Origin: Parapedobacter defluvii
GTDB taxonomy: Bacteria; Bacteroidota; Bacteroidia; Sphingobacteriales; Sphingobacteriaceae
Direction: 5' to 3'
NCBI RefSeq assembly: GCF_014642075.1
Contig: NZ_BMIK01000005.1
Coordinates: forward strand, 124,001-188,000
DNA length: 64,000 nucleotides
Program-made: the position numbers and the translations under genes
Shown here: piece by piece, positions 16,690 to 19,763 of the stretch
Position numbering within the stretch: position 1 is the stretch's first letter
How the letters are laid out: every line of letters starts with the position of its first letter
Notes under the pieces: generated by a model
The model's database searches: none
What the model was told of the DNA's origin: nothing
Seen by the model: only the letters and a program-made list of their open reading frames with translations

Positions 16690-17085
16690 CTATTTTGCTT
16701 GCTCCAATGCAGCAATCCGTTGTTTCAGCGCATCGATGGTAATTTCCTGCGAACGGATGGTTGTTTCTTGCGAGGAGATCACCTGCTTCAGTGTGTGGAT
16801 CAGTTCATCGGTTAATTTTGACGTTTCCGGCGGTGAATAATTTTCGGGGAGATCAGTCAGGATGTCGGCTTTTTTCATTTCACCCTCGCCTTTCAATAAC
16901 CATTCCGCCGAATAGTGCGGATAATTTTCAGCTAATTTTACTACCCATTTGCTTTGGATGTCGGTCCCGTTGGCCAAAGCCCGCGAAAAAACGCCCTTGC
17001 TGGCACCTATTGCTGCTTCTAACGCTGTCACACTGAGGCCTTCCTGCTGTGCGATTTCTTTAATTCTCTTCAATATAGAATCCAT
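16690..17085 (-). CDS. HTH repressor-like protein with C-terminal coiled coil
   Basis: 131 aa. Residues 1-65 are a lambda-repressor-type HTH (LSVTALEAAIGASKGVFSRAL, then SKWVVKLAENYPHYSAEWLLKGEG), a family frequent in Bacteroidetes accessory regions. Residues 91-130 form a heptad-like coiled coil (ISSQETTIRSQEITIDALKQ) that probably dimerises it. It is transcribed divergently from the 271-aa/HEPN pair, with a perfect 8-bp dyad in the 106-bp gap, so it is likely the autoregulated repressor of that cassette (inference). Confidence 0.78.
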   Translation of the reverse strand: MDSILKRIKEIAQQEGLSVTALEAAIGASKGVFSRALANGTDIQSKWVVKLAENYPHYSAEWLLKGEGEMKKADILTDLPENYSPPETSKLTDELIHTLKQVISSQETTIRSQEITIDALKQRIAALEQAK

Positions 17086-17097
17086 TCAGAAAAAATA

Positions 17098-17141
17098 TTC
17101 TTCAAAATATTTTTATTGAAGAAAAATAGTTCTTAAATTTG
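17098..17141 (+). promoter_or_regulatory. Operator dyad and promoter of the HEPN cassette
   Basis: Perfect inverted repeat TTCTTCAA (17098-17105) / TTGAAGAA (17116-17123) overlaps the -33 region, with the -7 box TAAATTTG at 17134-17141. A repressor bound to the dyad would block this promoter; the divergent HTH gene starts 13 bp away from the dyad. Confidence 0.65.
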
Positions 17142-17191
17142 GTTCGACGGAAATAATTAAATCTAAACTATCTTTCTTAAACCTTAAAGGG

Positions 17192-18007
17192 ATGAAATTT
17201 AAACAAAAGAAACTGAAAGCTGAAAATTTTCGGTATGTAATCAAACGAGTGATTAAAAACCCATTGATTTATCTAACTGATTTTTTTGGCTATCAGACCC
17301 AGATTGACAACTGGATGCGAACGATTAGCCTAACCCTGAATGCGGGCGCGTGTCCGGAAATGGCATGTCCTGATGTTTTGGAAAACGGATTCCATTGCAA
17401 GGAACTCATCGAACAGGTAGAAGTAGCTTATGTCATTTACAAACAGTGTGGGCTGAAAAAGCAGCGAAACCCATTGGCCTTTTTCAGAACAAGGGATGAC
17501 TATTTCGCCTACAGGTCACGTGGCGAGTACGCCTTTGACGGTCAAATTAACCCAGCGGATACGCTAAGCAAATTTTTTTCATTTCAATCCTTAAAAAAAT
17601 GGTACGGAACGTTGGATGATATTATGCTATCGCTTACGCAGGCAAAGGCCACCAATTATGACCGATTCGGTGATAAAATCGCTATCATCCAAGAACTGTT
17701 GCTCCGGCTTGCGCAGGCAATGTATGTGATTTACCGGAATGGAGGGCTTCCATTACAGGTACCCTCATATGTCATCGCTCAACCCTCGGATACCTTCGAA
17801 GGGAAGATGCCACTATCCAAATTAGGTGAACTGATACATAGCATCGCCGATAAACGTCATGCGGAAGCAGCCGCTGAATTGGAATCTGTTTTTGAGAAAG
17901 CGTACGGTGGGACAGAACCTGAGGACATAGCGAATCCGGATGACCGTGGCGATGAACAGAAAGACCATAGTGAGGATGGAGTGATGACTGAAGAGGCACC
18001 GGAATAA
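17192..18007 (+). CDS. Unknown alpha-helical protein of the HEPN cassette
   Basis: 271 aa, no recognised domain and no signal or membrane segment. Residues 1-195 look all-helical (FRYVIKRVIKNPLIYLTDFF; KELIEQVEVAYVIYKQCGL; FFSFQSLKKWYGTLDDIMLS; IIQELLLRLAQAMYVIYRNG). Residues 240-271 form an acidic, probably disordered tail. It lies 52 bp upstream of the pseudo-NTase/HEPN protein on the same strand and behind the HTH-controlled promoter. The pairing suggests the two work together, but no function can be assigned. Confidence 0.72.
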   Translation: MKFKQKKLKAENFRYVIKRVIKNPLIYLTDFFGYQTQIDNWMRTISLTLNAGACPEMACPDVLENGFHCKELIEQVEVAYVIYKQCGLKKQRNPLAFFRTRDDYFAYRSRGEYAFDGQINPADTLSKFFSFQSLKKWYGTLDDIMLSLTQAKATNYDRFGDKIAIIQELLLRLAQAMYVIYRNGGLPLQVPSYVIAQPSDTFEGKMPLSKLGELIHSIADKRHAEAAAELESVFEKAYGGTEPEDIANPDDRGDEQKDHSEDGVMTEEAPE

Positions 18008-18059
18008 GTGTTAAAAAAATAAGCGAATGAAATGACCGGATAACTAATATAGTTAAATC

Positions 18060-19763
18060 ATGAACCCAACAACCGCTCAACCCGACCATGCGCTTCAGCT
18101 CATTATCCAGCGCATCACCGAAAATCTATTGATCGACCAGATCTATCTGCATCCGTATAGGATTCAGGGTAAGCAAGTCAATCAGCTGTATGTCTTATTG
18201 CGTAATTCCGCCGGGCAGGGGATTACCTCCGCACGTGCACTCTGTAACTTAGCCGTGGCTGAGAAGCCGCAATACCGCTGCCACGTTGCAACGCCGGAAG
18301 ACCTGAACCGCAAAATCAGGCAAGGGAACATGCGGGCTACGCTGATCTGCCAACCCGATAAACTGGTTTTTGAGCATCCCGATGTGGACACATGTATCCA
18401 ACTACCGAAAGTAGACTTCCAGGTATGGCATGAGCAAGCAGAGGCGTATTTTGAAAAGGAGATTGCCCGAATTCACGCATTTGAAGAGGGCTATACATTT
18501 TACATGAGCAACGCGAATTGTGGGCAGGCGGCGTTTATGCTTCATCAGGTAATCGAGCAGGGATATCGCGCGGCTGAAAACCTGGTGATGGGCAAAGAGA
18601 AAATCAGCCATTCCCTGCGTAACCATCAGGAATACATTGCACCCTTCTGTCCGGAGTTGGGCGTGCTTTTCGAAAAGCAGCATGAAGTGAGCATAATGGG
18701 CAAATTGGACGAGTCGTATAGCTCGGCGCGGTATGACCACGATTTCTCCATGTCGAAGGAGGACCTGGCTATAGCAGCAAACAAAGTGAACGAATTAATC
18801 GCATACGTGATAGCTTATCACCGTGATCTGTTAAACGATATCCAGCAATATAAAGATAAGGCATCGGAAATTATCAGCTCAGAACCAACGCCGGAAGATG
18901 AAATACAGGACAGTGTAGAAGCAGGCGGCATCGAACTATATAGCGATGCCAGTTCCCATTGTGAACGTATCCTTTCGGTCGTCAATCGATATTTCATGCC
19001 TACCCATGTGTTTTGTTATGCACATCGATCGCGGGAAGAGTACTCGGTGAATCTGCTGGCATTGAATAATACAAAGATACAGCAGCATCGGTATTACCTG
19101 GCGATTTTAACGGAAGAGCTGCCGGATCAGGCGTTACACAAGCAGCACCAGATAAACGAGGCATTGGGGGATGAGCTGGAAATTGTGGCACTCTATTTCA
19201 AATTGAGTACGTTCAATAAGAAATTGGAGGAAGGGCACGGTTTTTTTCATTTTTTAGCCAAGGAAGCAGAGAGGTGGTGTGGCGAAGAGAAGCTGTTGTG
19301 TGCAGGGGATATGCCTGAGCCGGTCGACCCCGAGAAACAGCGCTGGCAGTGGAATCGGTATTTTTGGAATGCGGAGGGGTTGATGGAAATGGTCGAAAAT
19401 CAAATTGGTAGCCGATACGATGAATGCTGTTCAGTCGTTATGTCGCAAGCCATGGAACAACTTTGTCTTGGACTGTTGCATGTCATTTGGGGCTATAGGC
19501 CGGATAGTATTCTTAACTTAATGTACCTGATCCAGTTGACAGAGTCCATTACCCCACTCGCCAGAAAATGCTTCTGCCTCGATATACCGGAAGAACGGGA
19601 AATGGTTGTGGAGCTTTCGAAAGCACTGAGTGAGTTTAGGTATAATTCAAATTTCAATGTGAATGGATTTGACTTATGTATTTTACGTGATCGATTAGTA
19701 AGGTTTTCAAACGAAGCAGCGCAATTAGTCAACCGTCATTTTGAAACGTTGGATGGGGGTTAG
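18060..19763 (+). CDS. Duplicated pseudo-nucleotidyltransferase/HEPN protein
   Basis: 567 aa, soluble. The protein looks like two copies of one module. Copy 1 has an NTase-like alpha/beta segment (about 10-115, lacking the catalytic GSxxxG...DxD motif) and a HEPN-type helical segment (about 120-260). Copy 2 has the same order (about 298-415 and 430-562). Matching points: KIRQGNMRATLI versus KLEEGHGFFHFL; ARYDHDFSMSKEDL versus FRYNSNFNVNGFDL. The canonical HEPN RNase motif R-x4-6-H is not clear in either copy, so nuclease activity is uncertain. HEPN/MNT pairs are typical toxin-antitoxin modules; here both halves are fused and doubled. Its stop overlaps the convergent Usp gene by 4 bp. Confidence 0.72.
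   Translation: MNPTTAQPDHALQLIIQRITENLLIDQIYLHPYRIQGKQVNQLYVLLRNSAGQGITSARALCNLAVAEKPQYRCHVATPEDLNRKIRQGNMRATLICQPDKLVFEHPDVDTCIQLPKVDFQVWHEQAEAYFEKEIARIHAFEEGYTFYMSNANCGQAAFMLHQVIEQGYRAAENLVMGKEKISHSLRNHQEYIAPFCPELGVLFEKQHEVSIMGKLDESYSSARYDHDFSMSKEDLAIAANKVNELIAYVIAYHRDLLNDIQQYKDKASEIISSEPTPEDEIQDSVEAGGIELYSDASSHCERILSVVNRYFMPTHVFCYAHRSREEYSVNLLALNNTKIQQHRYYLAILTEELPDQALHKQHQINEALGDELEIVALYFKLSTFNKKLEEGHGFFHFLAKEAERWCGEEKLLCAGDMPEPVDPEKQRWQWNRYFWNAEGLMEMVENQIGSRYDECCSVVMSQAMEQLCLGLLHVIWGYRPDSILNLMYLIQLTESITPLARKCFCLDIPEEREMVVELSKALSEFRYNSNFNVNGFDLCILRDRLVRFSNEAAQLVNRHFETLDGG

Follow-up and report, generated by a model that had tools for sequence, protein, structure and literature searches.

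A recurrent trio of HTH, repeat-protein and duplicated NTase-like/HEPN genes in Parapedobacter and a related genus: a candidate sensor-effector module with an exchangeable subunit

We describe a three-gene cassette of Parapedobacter defluvii, found in the stretch of 64,000 nucleotides that was analysed (the window). With a probability of about 45%, we read it as a small, mobile, autoregulated sensor-effector module in which a HEPN protein would be the effector and a 271-aa repeat protein, P271, an exchangeable recognition subunit; its inferred function is probably defence-like. In related loci, the body of P271 changes from one allele to a very different one, with the HTH and HEPN genes kept. 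This swap is the cassette's most telling property and speaks for P271 as a recognition subunit, not a dedicated antitoxin. As the preliminary description of this locus had proposed, the ORFs and their coordinates place a small HTH gene on the minus strand, divergent across a 106-bp gap from the P271 gene and a 567-aa NTase-like/HEPN gene, both on the plus strand and separated by 52 bp. The features are as follows.

16690-17085, minus strand: HTH regulator, 131 aa, phage-repressor-like HTH and C-terminal coiled coil (ORF; PHROG; coiled coil read from the sequence)
17086-17191, unstranded: divergent promoter/operator region, 106 bp (gap between the HTH and P271 genes)
17098-17123, unstranded: putative operator dyad TTCTTCAA-N10-TTGAAGAA (sequence; position kept in relatives)
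17134-17141, plus strand: TAAATTTG, Bacteroidota-type -7 element (sequence; similar element in many compared loci)
17192-18007, plus strand: P271, 271 aa, two helical repeat units and an acidic tail, proposed exchangeable recognition subunit (ORF, model, unit HMM; exchange in related loci)
17204-17236, plus strand: conserved P271 leader QKKLKAENFRY (pattern across cassette loci)
17243-17437, plus strand: helical unit A, residues 18-82 (matched by an iterated HMM of the unit, E 5e-21)
17546-17731, plus strand: helical unit B, residues 119-180 (matched by an HMM seeded with unit A alone, E 2e-15)
18060-19763, plus strand: double NTase-like/HEPN protein, 567 aa, proposed effector (ORF, Pfam, PDB sequence match, model match)
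18087-18389, plus strand: degenerate NTase-like domain 1, about residues 10-110 (order of strands and helices in a model of low confidence; precedes HEPN 1, as in the NTase-HEPN order of L140)
18432-18854, plus strand: HEPN domain 1, residues 125-265, with E166, H184 and R224 (PDB 4nqf_A, E 8e-17)
18957-19289, plus strand: degenerate NTase-like domain 2, about residues 300-410 (alignment to the canonical NTase of L140)
19311-19754, plus strand: HEPN domain 2, residues 418-565, His lost (model versus 4nqf Z 10.9, 2hsb Z 10.5, sacsin HEPN Z 10.0)

The trio of HTH, repeat-protein and duplicated NTase-like/HEPN genes recurs together. Among 40 loci of the related genus g16, all fetched by a match to P271, the HTH gene adjoins P271 in 39 and an NTase-HEPN gene lies at most 2.5 kb away in 28 (including L104, whose frame is split), which bears out both the proposed three-gene module and the co-occurrence of the P271 and HEPN genes across loci. 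P271 and the HTH gene occur with no HEPN gene inside 2.5 kb in the other 12 g16 loci and in 2 of 6 Parapedobacter/Olivibacter loci. In the window's genus, an NTase-HEPN gene was found within ∼5 kb in 8 of 14 unit-bearing loci. The divergent HTH partner is present, 69 to 75% identical, in five other genomes. In locus L048, the P271 and HEPN genes overlap by 4 bp. Between pepT and uspA, the cassette sits as a discrete insertion: these flanking genes adjoin without it in five of the seven other genomes of the genus. From their sequences, we take the neighbors at the various loci to be lipB, hflX, recG, pepT, uspA and a DinB-like gene.

The exchange of P271 was measured in g16, outside the window's own genus. 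In near-identical g16 loci, lipB, hflX and HTH1 are 99% identical and HEPN 93%, yet the two versions of P271 share only 34% identity; the switch is sharp at both ends, ∼50 codons inside P271 and 35 bp ahead of HEPN. Over 25 pairs whose lipB identity was 97% or higher, the median identity was.99 for hflX,.92 for HTH2,.83 for HEPN (18 pairs),.80 for HTH1 (23 pairs) and.36 for the P271 body. Nucleotide similarity stopped inside P271 and returned near the start of HEPN in 4/4 pairs examined, and in seven pairs compared the HEPN proteins were 77 to 93% identical yet the P271 bodies only 31 to 36%. Class-1 P271 bodies are.76 to.84 identical between flank groups, with their HEPN proteins at.62 to.67 (8 pairs), and two further class-1 pairs with L117 stand at.67 to.68; only class 1 is cited as shared between groups because class 5, a candidate from single linkage, reached a cross-group identity of only.44 to.46. 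Some close pairs share one P271 allele (e.g., L105 and L106, body.98). For a 432-aa allele, an origin by fusion of two genes was rejected, since its protein and the second gene of L108 match at only 27.6%, and in the N-terminal part. The pairing, at one and the same site, of nearly the same HEPN with widely different P271 bodies amounts to a natural swap experiment, so that the setting of specificity by P271 is directly testable.

P271 contains two copies of a ∼65-aa helical unit that has no Pfam name. Pfam searches with 40 diverse units returned just five single-member matches (best E 0.012), and in a sample of 296 genomes from the phylum, 17 contained the unit family. The whole protein had one sub-threshold Pfam match (E 0.12), no PHROG match and no PDB match by sequence at E ≤ 1. 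The earlier account of a helical protein with an acidic tail agrees with the two helical units and with the tail visible in the sequence (residues 189 to 271 have pLDDT < 50 in the model). The model itself (pLDDT 58.8) gave no Foldseek match at E ≤ 0.001 and a best VIA Z of only 4.4, and HepT chains among the weak matches were excluded as evidence. The leader pattern occurs, with synonymous variation in its codons, in 44/46 cassette loci, some of them without HEPN, and in 0/6 solo loci. Elsewhere, the unit is fused with NTase-HEPN in a single protein (L043 and L032), unit genes adjoin HEPN under a different HTH type (L057 and L060), and further unit proteins stand in place of HEPN (L045 and L047). 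L055 (E 9e-5) was dropped as a relative because the P271 HMM did not match it.

The evidence supports the 567-aa protein as a duplicated, degenerate NTase plus HEPN, as first proposed. HEPN is its only Pfam match (residues 156 to 250, 23.2 bits, just above the cut-off of 22), and the same model was matched at E ≤ 0.1 in 9/9 members of A4; the PHROG match (E 0.001) is to a family of unknown function. The N-terminal half reaches the HEPN fold by sequence (4nqf_A, E 8e-17). For the C-terminal half, the model matches 4nqf with Z 10.9, rmsd 3.5 and 126 aligned residues, in a range (below about Z 13) where a shared arrangement can be enough for helical bundles to match; two designed proteins took ranks 2 and 6 in the same search, so that this half would not establish the fold by itself. 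The NTase-like assignment comes from homology to a rhizobial NTase-HEPN protein (L140, WP_278116238.1) with an intact LFGSYARG...FDLLV motif, not from Pfam: its NTase region aligns to the C-terminal-half NTase-like region of the profile (302 to 425) and its HEPN region to the N-terminal half (72 to 270). Inspection of the alignments by eye showed no GS/DxD residues in the window protein. From four sequences, AF2 gave a poor model of the 567-aa chain (pLDDT 43.3), of which only the C-terminal HEPN and the strand pattern were used. Neither outcome named beforehand as refuting (no NTase or HEPN fold in predicted structures; homologues of the two genes never together) was seen: the HEPN fold is supported by sequence in the N-terminal half, although the NTase fold was not confirmed by this poor model.

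From conservation, we predict an alternative RNase-type site in the first HEPN, E166/H184/R224 (39/39, 39/39 and 36/39, respectively). The canonical Rx4-6H RNase motif is absent, D or N standing four residues past R224 in place of H in 38/39. Active-site conservation is confined to this domain; the second HEPN has a His at column 484 in only 3/39, and the window protein lacks it. The pattern fits HEPN-T proteins without the Rx4-6H histidine, which occur according to the portions of PMC3710099 used here, as does an alternative-histidine variant inside HEPN-T. The same 2013 survey describes, in those portions, HEPN fused to MNT in one protein as typically without predicted catalytic residues and most likely inactive.

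In the proposed mechanism, an HTH dimer would bind the dyad and hold the operon low. P271 would be tethered to a partner via its N-terminal leader, and its variable helical body would bind something foreign or changeable; recognition would release the first HEPN to cut or block RNA, so that the cell stops growing or undergoes abortive infection. In place of a separate antitoxin, the second HEPN may act together with both dead NTase-like domains as a built-in scaffold or restraint. One gene swapped beside a constant, predicted RNA-cutting partner is what would be expected of an undescribed sensor-and-effector system. Tentatively, the cassette may even represent a new class of bacterial sensor-effector system, an interchangeable repeat-unit recognition subunit serving a duplicated active/dead HEPN ribonuclease, with, in one joint claim, a constant docking leader, a hypervariable body and a repeat family undescribed by Pfam. 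It would then parallel, on a small intracellular scale, the swapping of specificity subunits by recombination between constant neighbors. The recognition gene hsdS of type I restriction is swapped between constant neighbors in this way, by analogy only, but the cassette has no restriction or methylase genes. In our judgement, it is often unclear which protein decides when HEPN fires. Bacterial conflict systems commonly use HEPN effectors (PMC3710099, in part), and the unnamed helical repeat family would add to the search for new immune sensors.

We count in favor of the sensor-effector module the co-occurrence, the unit fusions, the discrete insertion, the allele exchange and the site conserved in HEPN 1 only. 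The setting and the PADLOC, viral and phage searches count against it. Flanks are mostly housekeeping genes, so that the defence islands of the preliminary description are unsupported in the loci seen, although an AbiEii (as in L105), DUF4143 ATPase or PIN gene adjoins HEPN in a few. For all three proteins, no family matched at E ≤ 1 in PADLOC-DB 2.0.0 or in NCBIfam; no match was found in the viral contigs and phages searched. No described system matched the cassette in these searches, and in a literature search on NTase-HEPN fusions the term was absent among the matches listed. Also counted against are the loci without HEPN within 2.5 kb, the close pairs with one P271, the likely inactivity of fused HEPN-MNT proteins (PMC3710099, in the part cited above), the poor HEPN model, a P271 without fold match and an exchange measured in g16. 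The preliminary interpretation thus stands in part, for the module, the duplication and the co-occurrence; it had missed the allele swap.

A toxin-antitoxin module, with HEPN as toxin, P271 as antitoxin encoded just upstream and the HTH protein as autoregulator, seems unlikely to us. It would explain the gene order (putative antitoxin first), the close spacing (52 bp in the window, overlap in L048) and the AbiEii gene adjoining HEPN in L105, and HEPN toxins are known in HEPN-MNT pairs (PMC3710099 and PMC7641770, each in part). However, HEPN proteins this similar beside P271 bodies this different, in the seven pairs, are the opposite of tight co-variation, HTH and P271 do without a nearby HEPN at 12/40 and 2/6 loci, and matches to the protein in 27 plasmid records are all partial, none reaching 80% coverage. 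Somewhat more doubtful is a transcriptional sensing unit, in which P271 would be a ligand-responsive co-regulator of the HTH protein and HEPN just one output among several, or an accessory that binds nucleotides: the leader tracks HTH, not HEPN, and in L045 and L047 further unit proteins take the place of HEPN, but neither the unit-NTase-HEPN fusions nor the unit genes beside HEPN under another HTH type need a link to this HTH. That P271 alleles neutralize neighbors' variable toxins in a polymorphic kin-recognition or immunity locus is quite improbable. The allelic diversity is high and the 5′ end and neighbor gene are conserved, but the constant partner is a HEPN protein, and no secreted polymorphic toxin gene was recognized by eye in the neighborhoods inspected.

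Like the type VII HEPN-MNT (HepT-MntA) modules, the cassette has NTase-type and HEPN domains as one unit in a short operon. It differs in carrying both in one protein, duplicated and with the NTase-like part degenerate, and in adding the repeat protein and the HTH gene; no separate active MNT gene with GS...DxD lies beside HEPN. With HEPN-T (PF05168; AF0298/2hsb, 4nqf and sacsin HEPN) it shares the Pfam, 4nqf sequence and model matches, the alternative histidine and the retained arginine, but each chain has two HEPN domains, and in 36/39 the His is kept by the first alone. L140 likewise carries both domains on one chain, NTase first, and is homologous to each half, but it is a single copy with the NTase motif intact, and no P271-type gene was found in the 5.4 kb fetched around it. 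According to PMC3710099, AbiV has the alternative histidine arrangement too; the portions of that paper used here mention no exchangeable partner for AbiV or the other abortive-infection proteins with HEPN.

The 131-aa protein had four sub-threshold Pfam matches and none above the cut-off, so its HTH assignment rests on the PHROG transcriptional regulators phrog_8 (E 7e-8) and phrog_4 (E 2e-6). The 8-bp dyad reported earlier in the divergent gap lies exactly at its given position. Taken alone it is weak evidence and not significant, since a perfect arm of at least 8 bp arises in 11.8% of 1,000 dinucleotide shuffles of the gap. The arms TTCTTCA/TGAAGAA were nevertheless seen by eye at the same place in 6/6 Parapedobacter/Olivibacter loci, perfect over 7 bp in five and with one mismatch in L048. 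Downstream of the dyad lies the -7 element, for which the Bacteroidota consensus is TAnnTTTG.

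ORF calling and a check of the sequence bore out the three open reading frames and the 106-bp divergent gap of the preliminary description:

16690-17085, minus strand: HTH protein, 131 aa
17098-17123: dyad, a putative operator
17192-18007, plus strand: P271, 271 aa, with two copies of a ~65-aa helical repeat (the unit)
18060-19763, plus strand: HEPN protein, 567 aa, with two NTase-like/HEPN halves (HEPN 1, residues 125 to 265; HEPN 2, residues 418 to 565)

The cassette forms a discrete insertion. The interval between genes that we take to be uspA-like and pepT-like holds the three cassette genes and one presumably DinB-like gene in the window, and the three genes only in L048, another locus with the cassette. 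Seven further genomes of the genus lack the cassette in their pepT region. In five of these (L155, L156, L157, L158, and L159), uspA and pepT are neighbors, with no intervening ORF of at least 90 aa; L153 has at this site what we assume to be a dehydrogenase-like gene, and L154 has other genes past pepT. The HTH-P271 pair was found at different sites in other genomes.

We then analyzed P271. An HMM built from its first unit alone and iterated recovered the second unit and converged, among the ORFs of the fetched loci, on 230 units in 96 proteins (a few counted twice because loci overlap), with 1 to 4 units per cassette protein. A Pfam search gave no name for the unit. P271 is a repeat protein. 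An NTase-HEPN gene was found within ~5 kb at 8 of the 14 unit-bearing loci of the window's genus, and the window's genome yielded two unit genes, each of which directly adjoins such a gene. Units and NTase-HEPN also occur in a single chain in L043 and L032, with lengths of 499 and 484 aa, respectively, and the genome G042 contains three such fusion frames, one of which is L043. Fusion and adjacency combined suggest that the units and NTase-HEPN work together.

HTH and P271 are divergent in all six Parapedobacter/Olivibacter loci and HEPN comes next in four of them, with two extra unit proteins (391/384 and 229/232 aa) in its place in L045 and L047. P271 is patchy, since its profile matched 64/399 genomes of the family and 48/93 genomes of the related genus g16. 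In 40 g16 loci, fetched by their P271 match, an HTH gene was located at most 1.5 kb from P271 in 39 cases and an NTase-HEPN gene at most 2.5 kb from it in 28, with a split frame in one (L104); in 3 of the other 12 (L135 to L137), NTase-HEPN is farther away, behind a helicase. Six loci with distant P271 relatives (L050 to L054 and L056) had neither an HTH gene nor a HEPN gene of these types close by. The HEPN frame is split in two in two genomes (L104:9826-11516 and L020:1016-2754), which can be read as if the gene were costly or dispensable.

Residues were counted in the 39 proteins of >500 aa matching the double-HEPN profile. H162, Q163, E166, H184, and Y220 of HEPN 1 are invariant (39/39), and R224 is retained in 36, the remaining 3 having K. 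According to the part of PMC3710099 consulted, an alternative histidine with a retained arginine and without the Rx4-6H histidine occurs in HEPN-T proteins, a variant that H184 and R224 fit; the same part states that catalytic residues are typically missing from a HEPN fused to MNT in the same protein. In HEPN 2, E466 is present in 39/39 and R527 in 33/39, and a histidine occupies the column taken by alignment judgement as equivalent in 3/39. Given this residue pattern, the protein looks like one active plus one dead HEPN. Its NTase-like parts are degenerate, and the canonical NTase of L140, a rhizobial NTase-HEPN fusion with an intact motif, aligns with the C-half one.

For the g16 site on the lipB/hflX side, we compared all 435 pairs of 30 lipB loci, scoring identity along the shorter of the two proteins. 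Where lipB was at least 97% identical (25 pairs), the medians were.99 for hflX,.92 for HTH2,.90 for a 406-aa neighbor (24 pairs),.83 for HEPN (18 pairs), and.80 for HTH1 (23 pairs), and for P271 they were.70 over the first 30 residues and.36 over the rest. Some close pairs kept the same P271 allele (L105/L106,.98; L126/L128,.92). The nucleotide sequences of L108 and L123 are 93.8% identical as far as 155 nt inside P271, have no detectable similarity between that point and the position 35 nt before HEPN, and are 92.5% identical through HEPN. Three other pairs are alike, with breaks 51 to 137 nt into P271 and 3 to 30 nt before HEPN, one having a short internal match. The exchanged stretch may contain a single unit gene or two. 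When clustered at 60% identity, 33 P271 bodies formed 13 groups (6 of 39 loci, unmatched by the leader pattern used for cutting, were left out) and 30 HEPN proteins formed 7. Class-1 P271 bodies are.76 to.84 identical across two flank groups (.67 to.68 for the two pairs of L117), where HEPN is.62 to.67; within one flank group, class 1 versus class 5 gave.31 to.36, with HEPN at.77 to.93 (7 pairs). The simplest account of these sequences is that P271 is replaced by recombination between conserved neighbors.

A plain toxin-antitoxin pair is less likely, because the supposed antitoxin, P271, changes without a change of the toxin, HEPN. P271 may be a co-regulator, since its conserved N-terminal leader follows HTH: the pattern xKKxK[AE]xxFR[YH] is present in 44/46 cassette loci (missing in L129 and L139) and in 0/6 solo loci, so that the leader tracks HTH more closely than HEPN. 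L138 has the leader, yet no HTH was found at that locus. Leu, Ala, and Arg of the leader are each encoded by several codons; as the pattern is kept with varied codons, the leader is conserved at the protein level. The cassette as a whole fits a restrained effector with a regulator and a changing recognition subunit, in which HEPN 1 would be the effector, restrained within the larger protein, HTH would regulate the cassette, and P271 would be the recognition subunit pressed to change. Any ligand, target RNA, or anti-phage effect of it would be a matter of inference.

The dyad alone was matched by chance in 11.8% of shuffles, which is not significant. By eye, its position is kept in 6/6 Parapedobacter/Olivibacter loci, one of them mismatched, and other palindromes are seen in the gap of some loci with other HTH types. 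Also by eye, one HTH1 allele (L102, L106, L122, and similar loci) has a long inverted repeat with widely spaced arms around ATAATTATCAATA/TATTGATAATTAT in the HTH-P271 gap, and another HTH1 allele has a different gap sequence.

For the window's three proteins, Pfam gave only HEPN above the cutoff, and NCBIfam and PADLOC gave no match. No relative was found in viral contigs or phages; 27 plasmid records matched part of the HEPN protein at <60% identity, none covering >80% of it. No such system appeared among the matches listed or in the portions consulted of the literature on HEPN with Bacteroidetes/defense, Sphingobacterium, Pedobacter, hypervariability, allele/recombination, and NTase-HEPN fusion. 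No described system was therefore matched, HEPN itself being of an already known kind.

Two g16 genomes have an AbiEii-type gene and a partner gene immediately next to HEPN (L105:4259-5751, Pfam AbiEii E value of 9e-32, and L108:11525-13017, whose gene is in the same cluster), so the HEPN-distal end may gather toxin-antitoxin genes. A PIN-domain gene (L049:7705-8211; Pfam E value of 7e-15) is located just past HEPN in a Parapedobacter locus. In L135:9523-14948, and likewise in L136 and L137, an SNF2 helicase (1160 to 1172 aa) adjoins another double HEPN protein (597 to 612 aa), convergent with a short P271 gene. A second type of HTH-controlled cassette occurs in the window's genome and one relative (L058:698-5448, L059:3504-6724, and L064:9494-12704), in the order divergent HTH, small c22/c23 (plus c24 or a unit protein), and single or double NTase-HEPN; those of L059 and L064 are near genes that we take to be integrase-like.
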